Source of the DNA: Candidatus Limnocylindrales bacterium
GTDB taxonomy: Bacteria > Moduliflexota > Moduliflexia > Moduliflexales > JAUQPW01
Direction: 5' to 3'
NCBI GenBank assembly: GCA_035559535.1
Contig: DATMBG010000051.1
Location: 248,001-312,000 of the forward strand
DNA: 64,000 nt
Positions 30,062 through 37,647 of the stretch are shown here, piece after piece. The notes under the pieces are model-generated. The model had not been told where the DNA came from, searched no databases, and saw nothing but the letters and a program-made list of their open reading frames with translations. Position 1 is the first letter of the stretch, and each line of letters starts with the position of its first letter. The position numbers were made by a program, and so were the translations under genes.

Positions 30062-30487
30062 CTATTTTTCCTCCTGTTTAAAGGTATCTACTTCAAAGAT
30101 AGGCCCTATATTTCCAACACTCATTAAATCTTCTCGTATTTGCCCGGTTACAACAACCCGGGCACCATCTTGATAAAGACCGGGATCACCCCCGATCAGC
30201 TCGTAATGATCTCCGCTGTCGGTAATAAGTTCCCAGAATCGGGTTCCAAGTTGGTGAAACTTTAAAGTTCCTCGAAGAGTCAATTTAAGAAAGAAGTGGG
30301 GGGAGTGTAAGAGTATGGGAGTGGGGGAGTGGGAGAGTATGGGGTAATATTTCTTATCCTCCCATACTTCCATACCTTGAAAAGTCTTTTCATTTAGAAA
30401 GTAACTGGCAAGTATACTCCCCCACTCCCATACTCTTACACTCCCACACCTCCATACTCCCACACTTCTACGAGGGTTTTCCTGCAA
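30062..30487 (-). CDS. small OB-fold-like protein with repeat-derived N-terminus
   Basis: Only residues about 65-141 look like a real protein: LKLTLRGTLKFHQLGTRFWE, then YELIGGDPGLYQDGARVVVTGQI and SVGNIGPIFEVDTF, a small beta-barrel pattern. The first 64 residues are a translation of the hairpin at 30294-30472 (runs like VGVWRCGSVRVWEWGS), so the hairpin seems to have separated this domain from its own start or supplied a new one. A TTG near 30285 is another possible start. It overlaps the subtilase 3' end by 20 bases. Confidence 0.5.
   Translation of the reverse strand: MQENPRRSVGVWRCGSVRVWEWGSILASYFLNEKTFQGMEVWEDKKYYPILSHSPTPILLHSPHFFLKLTLRGTLKFHQLGTRFWELITDSGDHYELIGGDPGLYQDGARVVVTGQIREDLMSVGNIGPIFEVDTFKQEEK
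30294..30472. repeat. TGGGAGTA-family hairpin with unique 78-bp core, copy 1
   Basis: The G-rich arm (30294-30344) and C-rich arm (30416-30470) flank a core, 30341-30418, that runs from GGGGTAATATTTCTTAT to GGCAAGTATACT. The same core occurs at about 37699-37776 in the same orientation, with about 5 differences in 78 bases. The core is not low-complexity, so the two loci share ancestry. Confidence 0.85.
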
Positions 30488-32273
30488 GGTAAGCTAATCC
30501 AAATGAAAAAAAGGCATTCACTAAAAGCCAGGTTTTATCCAGCAGAAAATTTCCAGGAATATAAGCAACTGTTGCCGAAGTTAGAAGAGCATCTACCAAC
30601 AGATGACCGGTCAGACCCAGGGTAAAGCCCAGGGCAAAACGGTTGAGGGATTTTGTGCTTAACAAGGTTATGATCAAAAGAAGGGGGAACATCGCGCTAT
30701 GAAACAACGGGTTTAAATCTGAAATCCTCCCCAACACAGAATAATCTAGGTCTGGAAAAGCTCGGGTAAAGGGTGTTATACCCTTGCTTAATAGGCCAGG
30801 TAATGGAAAAAAATTCAGGAAAAAAAGTCCTGAGGAAGCCCACAGGAGCCCAAGCCAGAAAAGAAGTCGGGGAAGCTTTTTGGGCAGGTGAAATCCTCTA
30901 AGGAGTTTAAAATAGATCCAGGCTAATAAGATCGCCACCAGGAGATACTTTAATCTGACAGGTATGATCATCGTTTGCGGAACAAAGATATCCGGTCGGA
31001 GGGAAGAGACGGCAGCGGCTGCATTGAGGAGTCCGGCGCCGTATTTCTCATCCGGGTTTTCTCCTGGAACGACGTTTGAAAGAGACTCTCCCTGTTGGGT
31101 ATGCCGGGTCGCACTGGCCTTGAGTATTTTCTCTACTTCATCGGGATTTTTCACTCCCAGGGAGATGATCAGAGCCGCTGTACCCGCTACATGGGGTGCT
31201 GCCATGGAAGTTCCCTGGAAATATTCATAACCATCCCGGGTTGGATCCATGTATCCAATGGTATTTTGAAGGATTCCATAACTGATACCCTTACTGGTAT
31301 CTCCACCCGGCGCAGCCAGGTCGATCTCCGGACCGTAGCTGGAATAAGGGGCCAGGGTTCCATTCGGTCCCAGGGCAGAGACACCTATACAATGAGGATC
31401 GGAGGCCGGAAAGCTCACCCCTCTACGACCTGAATTCCCGGCTGCACAGACCAGGGTCACACCTTTATCATGGGCATAGGCCATGGCTTCTTGAATAGTT
31501 CTACTGGGGAAAAAGCCCCCTAAACTTAAATTGATAACCTGTGCCCCGTGATCTGCCGCATATTGGATAGCTTCAGCAATATCGGCTATATTCCCGAACC
31601 CAAACCGATTCAAAACTTTTAACGGCATGATGGTAGCTTCATAGGCTATTCCTGCCACCCCAATCCTATTATGGGTTGACTGGGCAATAGTTCCGGCTAC
31701 ATGGGTTCCATGACCGTTATCATCATTGGGATGGGTATCATCATCGATAAAGTCATAACCCTCTGTAAATTGAGTATTTGCCAGATCTTGGACCCGGTGG
31801 TAAACCCCTTTTCGGTCTTGATAATCTTCATAGGCAACTCCTGTATCGATAACAGCCACAATAACCCCTTTTCCATGGGTTTTGTCCCAAGCTTCCGGCA
31901 TCTGAATGAACTTCATGTTCCATTGTTTATCAAAAAGTGGATCATTGGGAATTTCAAAAGCCTGATAAAGATAATTGGGTTCTACATATTCAACAGTAGC
32001 CTCGGCAGCTAAAGCCTGTAGGAGTTTTTGAAGCTTATCAGAATCCATCCCTGCCTTTGAAAATCGGGTAAGGGCTTCCGGCTTTGAGAAAATGCTGTTA
32101 TAGGTTAATTGAATTCCATACTTATGGGCAATTTTCTCAATCTCTTCTTGGGGAAGATTGTCTTTAAAATTAACAATTACCTCCCCATCATCCTCCTGGG
32201 CAGCACTTTGTAGGGGGAAAAAAGATAGGAAACCGATTAGATAATAAACTATAAAATACCAACGATAAATCAT
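30468..32273 (-). CDS. subtilisin-family (S8) protease with C-terminal membrane domain
   Basis: A 601-residue exported protease. A signal peptide (about 1-25) is followed by an inhibitor-like propeptide (VIVNFKDNLPQEEIEKIAHKY to VEYVEPNYLYQ). The catalytic triad is Asp143 (VIDTG), His188 (NGHGTHVAG) and Ser356 (GTSMAAPHVAG). After about residue 425 the chain becomes a block of about five membrane helices, including FTLGLTGHLLVDALL, which resembles membrane-bound metal-dependent hydrolases of the YdjM type. This tethers the protease to the membrane and is an unusual architecture. Confidence 0.9.
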   Translation of the reverse strand: MIYRWYFIVYYLIGFLSFFPLQSAAQEDDGEVIVNFKDNLPQEEIEKIAHKYGIQLTYNSIFSKPEALTRFSKAGMDSDKLQKLLQALAAEATVEYVEPNYLYQAFEIPNDPLFDKQWNMKFIQMPEAWDKTHGKGVIVAVIDTGVAYEDYQDRKGVYHRVQDLANTQFTEGYDFIDDDTHPNDDNGHGTHVAGTIAQSTHNRIGVAGIAYEATIMPLKVLNRFGFGNIADIAEAIQYAADHGAQVINLSLGGFFPSRTIQEAMAYAHDKGVTLVCAAGNSGRRGVSFPASDPHCIGVSALGPNGTLAPYSSYGPEIDLAAPGGDTSKGISYGILQNTIGYMDPTRDGYEYFQGTSMAAPHVAGTAALIISLGVKNPDEVEKILKASATRHTQQGESLSNVVPGENPDEKYGAGLLNAAAAVSSLRPDIFVPQTMIIPVRLKYLLVAILLAWIYFKLLRGFHLPKKLPRLLFWLGLLWASSGLFFLNFFPLPGLLSKGITPFTRAFPDLDYSVLGRISDLNPLFHSAMFPLLLIITLLSTKSLNRFALGFTLGLTGHLLVDALLTSATVAYIPGNFLLDKTWLLVNAFFSFGLAYLAGKPS

Positions 32274-33695: not shown

Positions 33696-33755
33696 GAAAG
33701 TAGCATCAAGCTAGAGAAATACAAAGTATAGGGAAGGTGAGCTAAAGTGCTTAGT

Positions 33756-33954
33756 ACTTTGTAAAGTTAGATTTGAGTAACCGTTCTGCCCTCACCCCCA
33801 ACCCCTCCTCCCCCCCTCTTCCATCCCCCGTGGACGGGGGATGGAAGGAGGGTATTTGGGAAGTTGATCCGGAGATCCTCCAGCTTCCCTCTCCCACGTT
33901 GTGGGAGAGGGGTCAGGGGTGAGGGAAAGCGATGCAAAATTAGCTTTACAAAGT
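33756..33954. repeat. MITE-like element, copy B
   Basis: 199 bp with terminal inverted repeats: the first 20 bases (ACTTTGTAAAGTTAGATTTG) and the reverse complement of the last 20 agree at 17 positions. The interior is a stem of CCCTCACCCCCAACCCC words and GTCAGGGGTGAGGG words with GTGGACGGGGG and CACGTTGTGGGAG sub-hairpins. Copy A is at 6167-6374. It sits in the 508-base gap between ino1 and the SBP-CheA gene. Confidence 0.75.
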
Positions 33955-34122
33955 CCTAAAGAGCTAAAGTTAATTTTCTACTTTAGACACCTCCTTATAC
34001 CCTGTGTTCCCCTAGCTCGGATTAAAATTTAGATCTATAAAGGTATGGGAATATAGTTTTTTAAATACGACCCCTAATTTGAGGATGTCAATGGAAATAA
34101 GGAAGGAAGTACCACAAAAAAG

Positions 34123-34203: not shown

Positions 34204-37200
34204 GTGAAGAGAATCAAGCTTTATGGTGTTAAAGATCCAAATATTTCAAGCCAGTTGATACTAGCTAAAGAAAAAGGGTTTTTTGATGAAGAAGGTCTGC
34301 AAGTGGAATATCGACTTCTTCCCTCCGGAACCATAATGCCGGATGAAGTGATTCAGGCCAAGGAGAAGCCTTTTGCTTTTACTCAGACTCCGGTTACCAC
34401 GCTCATTCTTCAGGATCGAGGCCTGGATGTTAAAATTGTGGCCCCTCTGGCAGATATTTCTGGAACTCAACAGGTTGTGATTCGGGAGGATTCTGGAATT
34501 GTAACTCCCAGAGATTTAGAGGGAAAGAAAATAGGAATGGCGCAAGGGGCCGCGGTTTATATTGCCCTTCAGAGTATGGCCCGGGAGTTTGGAGTAGATC
34601 TGACGCGGATTACCTTTGTAGACCTGCTTCCTGCTCAACAGTTAGAAGCACTACAACGGGGAGAAATCGACGGAATGGCGTGTTGGGAACCCTGGACCAG
34701 CCGGGCCCAGGCCATAGGAGGTAAATTTTATTTCTCCGGTTCCCGTTCGGCCATACCGGGCTATGAGGAAGAGATTAACTGGTTGGTAGACCAAAGTGTC
34801 CTCATGGTTTTGAACGAGAATCTTCAACAACATCCGGATACGGTTAAAGCTCTGATTCGGGCCTTTAAAAAAGCAACGGATTTCATTAATGAGAATCCAG
34901 AAGAAGCGGCCATGATTTTATCGGGACCCCTGTCTGCTGATAAAATCGAGCTGGATAAAATTCTGGCCCTCAATAAATACTCCATGAAGATGGATAACCT
35001 CTTTAAAATAGGGCTTCTCTCCTTTCGAGAGCTCCTATTTCAAAATGGGGTCATCTCCACCATGCCCGAGGAAAAGAGATTGTATACAACGGAATGGTTG
35101 GAGGCTGTAGAGCCTTCTCTGGTTCTCATAACCCGTGAAGGGGAGGTTGTGGAGGAAGAAGAAAATGAAGAGTTTTTGGAAATTTTCTTTGAGGAGGCCG
35201 GTGATATCCTGGAAGGTCTGGAGAAAGGAATCCTGGCCCTTGAGAAAGCCCCTGGAGATCGAAATATTCTAAGAAATGTTATAACGGCCTCCCACACGTT
35301 AAAAGGTAATTCAGGATTCCTCGGATTTGAAAAGATTAATTCCCTGAGCCGCCATATGGAAGAGACCCTTAAGGCCGTTCAGAAATCTGACGGAATTATT
35401 ACCCAGGGTTTGATTACCGTTCTCTTTAATTGCCTGGATACTCTTCGGAGATTGGTCAATGACTATAAAACAGATAAAACCAGCCCCCTGGATCTCACAC
35501 CGCTATTAACAAAAATTAATCAACTGGTATCGGAGTCCTTAACCGAAACAGCCGTTTCCCTGGTTCATCAGCAGGAAGAAGGTATTGAACTGATTGGATA
35601 TGAAGAAGTAAAACTTAAGGAAGCTCAAGAAAAAGGAAAAAGAGTATTCCGAATAGAGATAGAATTTGCACCCGATTGGTCTCTGCACTCTGCAGGTGCT
35701 TTTATGGTAACTCGCAAGCTCTCCCGATTGGGGGAGGTTATCAAGGTGGACCCCCCTTTAGGGAGTGGTGAACTAAAAAAAACAAATCACTTCCAACTCA
35801 TCCTGGCCAGTAGCGCACCTGAGGAGTTGATCCAACGTCGGGGAAAGGTAGCCGCAGTTGTTCAGACTATTCGTATATCTCCCTTTGCACTTCCCTCCTT
35901 ATCTGAAACCCACAGGGTAGAGGTCCTTTCACCGGGTTCAGAGCCTGTGACCTCCTATTCCGTAGACGAGGAGTTCGAAATCTCTTCCTATACTCCTGTT
36001 ACTTCTACACCGTCGGCTAAAAAAACCTTACGGGTAGACTATCAACTACTGGATGAAATTATGAACGTGGTTGGGGAACTGGTTATCGGAGGAGCCACCC
36101 TTTCCCAAGGTCTAAGTAAATTAAATGCCATTTTTCCTACCGGAGAAACAGCCCGTTTGATCGAGCAACTTATGAAGACCAATACGCTGGTTCGAAAAAA
36201 TTTGTTGAACCTACAAGAGAATATCATGAAGGTTCGTATGATGCCGATCGATGTGGTATTTAAACGTTTCCCTCGATTGGTCAGAGATCTGGCTCTAAAA
36301 AAAGGTAAAGAAGTGAAGCTGGAAATAACCGGAGAGCACACCGAACTGGATAAAGCCATCCTGGATCTGATCGGGGAGCCTTTAACGAAACTTCTTCGAA
36401 GTATTGTGGAATACGGAATTGAACCCCCCTCTCTACGAGCCCAACTGGGTAAACCGACCACAGGTAGAGTAAGTCTCAACTCTTACCATGCCGGTAATCA
36501 AATTATTATCGAAATTTCCGATGATGGCCGAGGAACCGACCTGGTTCGGGTGAAAAACCTGGCCGTCGAACATAAATTTTTTACCCCCGAGGAAGCTGAA
36601 AATCTCTCCATTTCGGACCTTTTTAATGTATTCTTTAATCGGGGATTGGTCATCCCTGAAAGCGAGGAAAACTCTTTTCTGTTCGGTCCAGGAATCCAGA
36701 GTGCTCGTAAGGTCATCGAAGAGCTTAATGGCACCCTAGAAGTCGAAAGCCAACTGAATAAGGGAACCCGATTTATCGTTAAACTCCCTTTAACTTTAGC
36801 CATTATTCAAGCCCTTCTTCTGGAAATCGGAAACCGGGTTTTTGCCATTCCCTTATCGCTGGTGGTAGAAGTCCTGAGAATTTCAACAAAAAACATCGAA
36901 ATCATAGGAAAACAGGAAGTTTTTCAACTCAGAGGTCAGGTCATTCACCTCCTGAGACCTTACGATATTCTGGGAGTTCCTCCACCTAAAATCCAGAATG
37001 AGAAATTATTTGTGGTGGTGGTACGGGTTGCACGGGATGAATTGGTGGGGATTGTCACAGACCAACCTTTAGAAAAAGAAGAACTGGTCATCAAATCCTT
37101 GGATACTAAAATTGTCAAAACAGATATTATTTCCAGTGCTTCCAAACTGGGAGACGGACGGGTGATTCTCATTTTGGATGTACCCGCCCTCATTAGCAAG

Positions 37201-37221
37201 ATGTATAACCGGGAGTACTAA
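34204..37221 (+). CDS. substrate-binding-domain/HPt/CheA-like fusion histidine kinase
   Basis: 1005 residues, no signal peptide. Residues 1-310 are an NMT1/SsuA-type substrate-binding fold (IKLYGVKDPNISSQLILAKEKGFFDEEGLQV, VTPRDLEGKKIGMAQGAA, DGMACWEPWTSRA), normally a periplasmic ABC-transporter part. Residues 320-445 are an HPt domain with phospho-acceptor His364 (SHTLKGNSGFLGF). CheA dimerisation (LLDEIMNVVGELVIG, 615-630), ATPase (680-862) and CheW-like regulatory domain (863-1000) follow. The G1 box DDGRG (773-777) is kept. The N-box reads LRSIVEYGIE at 731-740, where CheA usually has a RN-x-x-DHGIE pattern, so the Mg-binding Asn and His are Ser733 and Tyr737. The G2 box is altered to FGPG. 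The start is a GTG with GGGAGGA upstream. Kinase activity is uncertain. Confidence 0.9.
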   Translation: MKRIKLYGVKDPNISSQLILAKEKGFFDEEGLQVEYRLLPSGTIMPDEVIQAKEKPFAFTQTPVTTLILQDRGLDVKIVAPLADISGTQQVVIREDSGIVTPRDLEGKKIGMAQGAAVYIALQSMAREFGVDLTRITFVDLLPAQQLEALQRGEIDGMACWEPWTSRAQAIGGKFYFSGSRSAIPGYEEEINWLVDQSVLMVLNENLQQHPDTVKALIRAFKKATDFINENPEEAAMILSGPLSADKIELDKILALNKYSMKMDNLFKIGLLSFRELLFQNGVISTMPEEKRLYTTEWLEAVEPSLVLITREGEVVEEEENEEFLEIFFEEAGDILEGLEKGILALEKAPGDRNILRNVITASHTLKGNSGFLGFEKINSLSRHMEETLKAVQKSDGIITQGLITVLFNCLDTLRRLVNDYKTDKTSPLDLTPLLTKINQLVSESLTETAVSLVHQQEEGIELIGYEEVKLKEAQEKGKRVFRIEIEFAPDWSLHSAGAFMVTRKLSRLGEVIKVDPPLGSGELKKTNHFQLILASSAPEELIQRRGKVAAVVQTIRISPFALPSLSETHRVEVLSPGSEPVTSYSVDEEFEISSYTPVTSTPSAKKTLRVDYQLLDEIMNVVGELVIGGATLSQGLSKLNAIFPTGETARLIEQLMKTNTLVRKNLLNLQENIMKVRMMPIDVVFKRFPRLVRDLALKKGKEVKLEITGEHTELDKAILDLIGEPLTKLLRSIVEYGIEPPSLRAQLGKPTTGRVSLNSYHAGNQIIIEISDDGRGTDLVRVKNLAVEHKFFTPEEAENLSISDLFNVFFNRGLVIPESEENSFLFGPGIQSARKVIEELNGTLEVESQLNKGTRFIVKLPLTLAIIQALLLEIGNRVFAIPLSLVVEVLRISTKNIEIIGKQEVFQLRGQVIHLLRPYDILGVPPPKIQNEKLFVVVVRVARDELVGIVTDQPLEKEELVIKSLDTKIVKTDIISSASKLGDGRVILILDVPALISKMYNREY

Positions 37222-37245: not shown

Positions 37246-37647
37246 ATGGCCGAGATTCTCAAAAAAGATGGAAAAAAATTTCGATTTCTCTTGGTCGACG
37301 ATTCTCGATTTGCGCGTATAAGCTTAAGTAAGGTGGTCGAACAGGTGGGAGGGGAAGTCGTTGGGGAAGCTACGTCGGGTGAGGAAGCTCTCCGTCGTTT
37401 TGAAGAACTCAGACCCGACATCGTGACCATGGATATGTCCTTACCCGATACGGACGGAATTACCCTGGTCCGACGTTTTATGGGAATAAATCCCCAGACC
37501 CTTATTATTCTGATCAGTGGAATCTCCCATGAGGAGGTAATCGAAGAGGCTTTACGTGCAGGAGCCGAGCATTTTATTTCTAAACCCCTAAACCTAAATA
37601 AAGCCGTTGAGATCGTACGGTGGGTTTTGGAAGAATCAGACCGATAA
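37246..37647 (+). CDS. CheY-like single-domain response regulator
   Basis: A 133-residue receiver domain. Acidic pocket residues are Asp18/Asp19 (LLVDDS), the phospho-acceptor is Asp63 (TMDMSLPD), the switch position is Ser in LIILISGIS and the conserved Lys is in FISKPL. All key residues are intact. It starts 24 bases after the CheA-like gene and is the natural phosphate acceptor. No output domain is present, so it acts through protein binding. No Shine-Dalgarno is visible, so translational coupling is likely. Confidence 0.93.
   Translation: MAEILKKDGKKFRFLLVDDSRFARISLSKVVEQVGGEVVGEATSGEEALRRFEELRPDIVTMDMSLPDTDGITLVRRFMGINPQTLIILISGISHEEVIEEALRAGAEHFISKPLNLNKAVEIVRWVLEESDR

Follow-up and report, generated by a model that had tools for sequence, protein, structure and literature searches.

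A substrate-binding domain without an export signal is fused to a CheA scaffold with a degraded ATP site and is conserved beside its own CheY

A survey of 13,673 CheA sequences describes CheA as a protein without a sensor domain, and the extra domains named there are P2, a CheY-like receiver, and CheC/CheX (PMC10782961). In R. sphaeroides, CheA3 is phosphorylated by CheA4 (PMC3591291), and its P4 domain is given as nonfunctional in the same survey (PMC10782961). Among transport proteins, cyanobacterial NrtC carries a regulatory domain that is cytoplasmic and has a putative nitrate site (PMC6603209). The first-pass annotation of the DNA studied here proposed a fusion of a substrate-binding domain (SBP) to CheA and knew of no described example. 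In agreement with this, our literature searches, whose coverage took in few subscription papers, found no description of an SBP-CheA or SBP-CheY fusion.

The window, by which we mean the whole stretch of 64,000 nucleotides that was analyzed, is part of contig C51 of a 5.6-Mb draft genome. The SBP-CheA gene (positions 34204 to 37221, plus strand) encodes 1,005 amino acids from a GTG start codon, has no interruptions, and is preceded by a ribosome-binding-like GGAGG approximately 8 nt upstream of the GTG. The single 1,005-codon frame reported by the first-pass annotation was thereby confirmed, as were the NMT1/SsuA-type SBP, HPt, dimerization, ATPase, and CheW domains; a P2 domain had been overlooked. 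In the Pfam analysis, every match exceeded its curated cutoff. The SBP comprises residues 1 to 312 (34204 to 35139; PF09084, residues 17 to 235, 7.5e-30, 104.9 bits against a cutoff of 20.5). It is followed by a P1/HPt domain (35161 to 35463; PF01627, residues 323 to 415, 1.3e-10), which contains the phospho-acceptor His364 (codon at 35293), Lys367, and Glu386, and by a P2 CheY/CheB-docking domain (35635 to 35883; PF07194, residues 481 to 547, 1.7e-8). The remainder has the domain order of CheA: a P3 dimerization domain (36016 to 36234; PF02895, residues 607 to 677, 3.8e-13), a P4 ATPase-like domain (36235 to 36801; PF02518, residues 741 to 864, together with motif comparison), and a P5 CheW-like domain (36802 to 37203; PF01584, residues 869 to 998, 2.3e-22). 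The protein matched the NCBIfam CheA models at 4e-89, yet fell under their equivalog cutoffs. Among known structures, those of Thermotoga CheA matched P3 to P5 (1e-72), and those of SsuA, TauA, and THI5 gave weak matches to the SBP. Structure predictions made without an alignment for residues 1 to 316 and 313 to 1005 had pLDDT values of 32 to 34 and were left unused. The SBP scored 105.1 bits against TIGR01728 (SsuA_fam), under the cutoff of 163.5, and, judged by the TIGR01728 rule, it is not a member of the SsuA subfamily.

Further inspection of the N terminus revealed no export feature (signal peptide or lipobox). The reading frame is closed by a TAA 9 codons ahead of the GTG, and the N terminus is hydrophilic, with Kyte-Doolittle means over 19 residues of at most 0.2; together, these features make a signal peptide on SBP-CheA impossible. 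The peak hydrophobicity of the protein (2.0 on the Kyte-Doolittle scale, from residue 857) falls on LPLTLAIIQALLL, which is a core strand of P4/P5 and not a membrane segment. The earlier proposal that the SBP is cytoplasmic and joined to a CheA architecture, with neither signal peptide nor membrane segment, is therefore supported. No ABC permease or ATPase genes adjoin SBP-CheA.

A single-domain CheY-like response regulator (37246 to 37647, plus strand; PF00072, 3.5e-25) starts 24 bp after SBP-CheA, as the first-pass annotation had noted. Its phosphorylation site is intact (Asp63, the acidic pair at 18 and 19, Ser91, and Lys113). Other neighbors in the window, read from their sequences, include an inositol-phosphate synthase and a branched-chain aminotransferase, and no Rfam RNA element was matched around the SBP-CheA gene. 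Directly upstream of the gene is a MITE-like element (33751 to 33959) with 25-nt terminal inverted repeats (84%) around a second 19-nt inverted repeat; it has 60 matches genome-wide, nearly all of them partial. A subtilisin-like protease with a C-terminal multispanning membrane region, read from its translation, is encoded at 30468 to 32273 on the minus strand.

Full-length SBP-CheA orthologues were found in all four genomes of the order examined, at 52 to 95% identity. The orthologue in a sister species of the genus (L047, from a second assembly) is 95% identical, and those in two further genera (G002 and G003, the latter probably "Ca. Vecturithrix granuli") are 52 to 54% identical over their full length. 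The public contig JAUQPW010000089.1 of the sister species also bears SBP-CheA; the contig search matched the gene in the sister species only. CheY adjoins SBP-CheA in 4/4 genomes and is 65 to 95% identical to the CheY of the window. In G002 and G003 (L056 and L055), the pair is flanked by glgC (ADP-glucose pyrophosphorylase) on one side and a gene for a phosphoglucomutase-like sugar-phosphate mutase on the other, a context that possibly reflects a link to glycogen or a different ligand. Comparison of the two species within the genus gave SBP-CheA an overall dN/dS of 0.087, indicating purifying selection, with values of 0.03 for P3, 0.049 for P4, 0.03 for P5, and 0.11 for the SBP. The SBP is the most conserved domain in identity (69% to G003 and 65% to G002; the other domains are 37 to 62% identical to G003), as is expected when a binding function is retained. 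Searches outside the order for SBP-CheA or SBP-CheY fusions, spanning more than 800 genomes in overlapping samples, gave free SBPs only. These searches mostly scored five to six candidates per genome at strict thresholds and were confined to this SBP family and its relatives, and the absence of the fusion outside the order is provisional. Plasmid searches with the SBP returned only distant transport SBPs (<36% identity).

The N, G1, and G2 boxes serve Mg-ATP binding in the GHKL/CheA family, and the three boxes that CheA needs intact for Mg-ATP are not all intact in SBP-CheA. The N-box residues His, Asn, and His are each invariant in 42 of 42 ordinary CheAs (paralogues from these four genomes plus others across the domain), and none of the four SBP-CheAs has all three together. 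In the window N box, KLLRSIVEYGIE, they are replaced by K, S, and Y, with Ser733 in the place of Asn. The triplet is K, S, Y in G001; H, H, Q in G002; and Y, N, H in G003. The G2 box is altered in every orthologue (FLFGPGIQSA for SGRGVGMDVV in the window), and His364, Lys367, and Glu386 of P1 are retained in all four. The first-pass annotation had called the protein a CheA-like histidine kinase, but with the Asn/His set of the N box and the glycine motif of the G2 box lost, self-sufficient kinase activity is doubtful. Since ATP-site residues that all ordinary CheAs examined retain are lost here, SBP-CheA is probably a ligand-gated relay and less likely a self-sufficient kinase.

In a tree of CheA proteins, the SBP-CheAs form a clade with a support of 100 on a long branch. 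The closest conventional group (support, 92) includes a CheA encoded on contig C7 of the same draft genome and its orthologues. We consider this conventional CheA, encoded elsewhere in the genome, a candidate partner kinase for SBP-CheA. The C7 locus (L125:8205-13070) encodes this CheA together with three response regulators and a CheW-like protein, and no MCP gene lies alongside. The genome has several other CheA-type loci and 12 MCP matches; G003 has 75 MCP matches, and over 60 methyl-accepting proteins have been described for "Ca. Vecturithrix granuli" (PMC4312070). The suggestion that input is built into SBP-CheA instead of coming from MCPs overstated the case. Few parts of the protein are as well conserved as P5/CheW, and MCPs and ordinary CheAs occur in all four genomes, so membership in a signaling array is still likely.

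These analyses indicate that an SBP without an export signal sits on a P1-P5 scaffold throughout the order as sampled, together with its own CheY, and that the phosphorylation sites are intact and the ATP site is degraded. The reading that we prefer, at about an even chance of being right, is that SBP-CheA would act as a cytosolic, ligand-gated, ATP-site-defective relay, with His364 phosphorylated by a partner CheA and the phosphate passed to CheY. The SBP would bind a small molecule already in the cytosol and then close, and closure would alter where P1 sits or how accessible it is, or else the state of the dimer or array. P5 would dock the protein into CheW-containing signaling assemblies, where a conventional CheA would phosphorylate His364 in trans, as CheA4 acts on CheA3 in R. 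sphaeroides, and the phosphate would then move from His364 to the adjacent CheY docked on P2. The output would probably be a type IV pilus, gliding motility, or another nonflagellar function, since FliM was found in 0/4 genomes, PilT was above the cutoff in 4/4, and gliding has been reported for filaments of KSB3 (Modulibacteria), the candidate phylum to which the window would belong if G003 is "Ca. Vecturithrix granuli."

The alternative that survives best is that SBP-CheA is a self-sufficient, ligand-gated CheA with a noncanonical ATP site, in which P4 would phosphorylate P1 and the SBP would replace or supplement MCP input. The whole P1-P5 layout and the low dN/dS of P4 speak for this. The protein may still bind ATP to a residual degree or in an altered way, because the G1 box DDGRG is retained in 4/4 SBP-CheAs and the N box of the G003 protein still has the Asn, the Asp, and one His. 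We nonetheless consider a self-sufficient kinase unlikely, given that the N-box Asn is lost in three of the four orthologues and the full His set and the G2 box in all four, while every ordinary CheA compared retains H/N/H. Less probable again is a phosphate sink or CheY-phosphatase-like regulator whose strength would be set by the ligand. P1 and P2 are intact and P4 is degenerate, as such a function would allow, and the nearest precedent in function, CheA3 of R. sphaeroides, acts as a phosphatase on CheY6 (PMC3591291). However, the same anatomy is explained by ordinary forward transfer from P1 to CheY.

In addition to its SBP-CheA, G003 encodes seven SBP-CheY (SBP-REC) proteins of ~460 to 480 amino acids, whose SBPs belong to the same family as that of SBP-CheA (43 to 58% identity). 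The phosphorylation site of their receivers is intact and a signal peptide is absent. The seven fusions indicate that the SBP is a recurrent input module, and in G003 the ligand state might be readable on the regulator side as well. One of them (L048:3663-10001) shares its operon with two CheR-like genes, a CheB-like gene, and a gene for a large HEAT-repeat protein. The receivers of the SBP-REC proteins are 32 to 46% identical to the CheY encoded next to SBP-CheA, and the fusions do not form one clade in the SBP tree; their origin through loss of the CheA part between the SBP and the adjacent CheY is possible. More broadly, a captured cytosolic SBP may have become a portable input domain specific to this lineage, carried by an ATP-site-dead CheA and, separately and repeatedly, by CheY-like receivers, through which an intracellular metabolite would gate phosphotransfer in the kinase as well as in the regulator without a receptor. 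We put forward this wider reading tentatively, at somewhat less than an even chance.

A profile built from the fused SBPs was used to find free relatives, which fell into two other groups. In the first (the class of G088; hydantoinase linked, L091 to L102), an ABC permease and an ATPase stood beside the SBP in 12 of 12 loci read fully, and a hydantoinase/dihydropyrimidinase-like gene was present in most. The closer group (L106 to L123), with 39 to 44% identity to the fused SBPs, is made up of lipoprotein SBPs encoded in regulator-ATPase-permease-SBP operons. Of the 12 best loci of this group, 10 have an allantoinase homologue no more than 1.5 kb away. At four representative loci, all four allantoinases were confirmed by TIGR03178 (530 to 560 bits against a cutoff of 357.85), and two of these loci also have an allantoate-deiminase-like gene. 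These SsuA-like SBPs, usually found beside an allantoinase, are candidate components of an allantoin or ureide ABC importer; the member tested fell under the SsuA_fam cutoff, and the group apparently has no NCBIfam family of its own. IQ-TREE analysis placed the 11 fused SBPs (CheA and REC) in one clade (support, 100/100), with the allantoinase-linked SBPs as its sister (98/93). The most economical interpretation is a single capture of an importer SBP, followed by loss of the export signal and conversion into an input module.

The fused SBPs are sister to the allantoinase-linked importer clade and lie outside it, so this relationship suggests a ligand rather than establishing one. From the gene neighborhoods of these relatives, we tentatively propose an allantoin-like cyclic ureide or hydantoin, a proposal more apt to prove wrong than right. 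It rests on 35 to 44% identity, and several probable cleft positions carry fixed differences between fused and importer SBPs. The genome of the window has two allantoinase matches above the cutoff, and G002 and G003 have none above it. A sulfonate or taurine ligand, as the name SsuA would imply, is not favored, the domain being below the SsuA cutoff and its nearest relatives lying beside allantoinase or hydantoinase genes.

The fixed differences from importer SBPs, together with the presence of one SBP family on both CheA and receivers, as a pairing module would be, could also mean that the SBP has lost ligand binding and acts as an oligomerization or targeting module common to SBP-CheA and SBP-CheY. 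This is improbable. The conserved stretches TQTP, ADISGTQQ, ACWEPW, and NWLVDQ overlap positions conserved in transport SBPs, and three of the four genomes have the CheA fusion only, with no second SBP partner at a threshold of 1e-30. An assembly chimera or pseudogene, for which we found no supporting point, can be dismissed for practical purposes: the fusion occurs in four genomes at 52 to 95% identity with a conserved downstream CheY, its overall dN/dS is that of a constrained gene, and this orthology contradicts a frame break between residues 300 and 330, which the first-pass annotation had named as refuting the fusion.

The allantoinase-linked SBPs have conserved motifs in common with the fused SBPs, but these and the hydantoinase-linked importer SBPs are exported, free, and encoded with a permease and an ATPase, whereas the SBP of the window is cytosolic and fused to a signaling protein. 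The SBP-CheY proteins of G003 resemble SBP-CheA in belonging to the same SBP clade and in missing a signal peptide; their output is a receiver domain alone, while that of the window protein is a CheA. Canonical CheA has the order P1, P2, P3, P4, P5 in common with SBP-CheA. Unlike canonical CheA, which has no sensor domain according to the survey (PMC10782961), SBP-CheA has an N-terminal SBP and degenerate N and G2 boxes. With an SBP welded onto this textbook histidine kinase, and related SBPs onto CheY, chemosensory pathways would be able to read internal metabolites, bypassing receptors, and SBP-CheA would offer a natural ligand-controlled split kinase for study. CheA3 of R. sphaeroides, like SBP-CheA, retains a phospho-acceptor P1 and a P5, its P4 being nonfunctional where that of SBP-CheA is motif degenerate; CheA3 has no sensor domain, whereas SBP-CheA has the SBP, and we do not claim common ancestry of the P4 defect. 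The C-terminal regulatory domain of NrtC, which we take to be NrtA-like, parallels the cytosolic SBP in being cytoplasmic and in having a putative substrate site, and a cytosolic SBP-like regulator is therefore not unprecedented per se. The NrtC domain, however, belongs to an ABC ATPase and works with PII to regulate transport, whereas SBP-CheA would lead to phosphotransfer and would represent a transport binding protein recruited wholesale as a cytosolic sensor.
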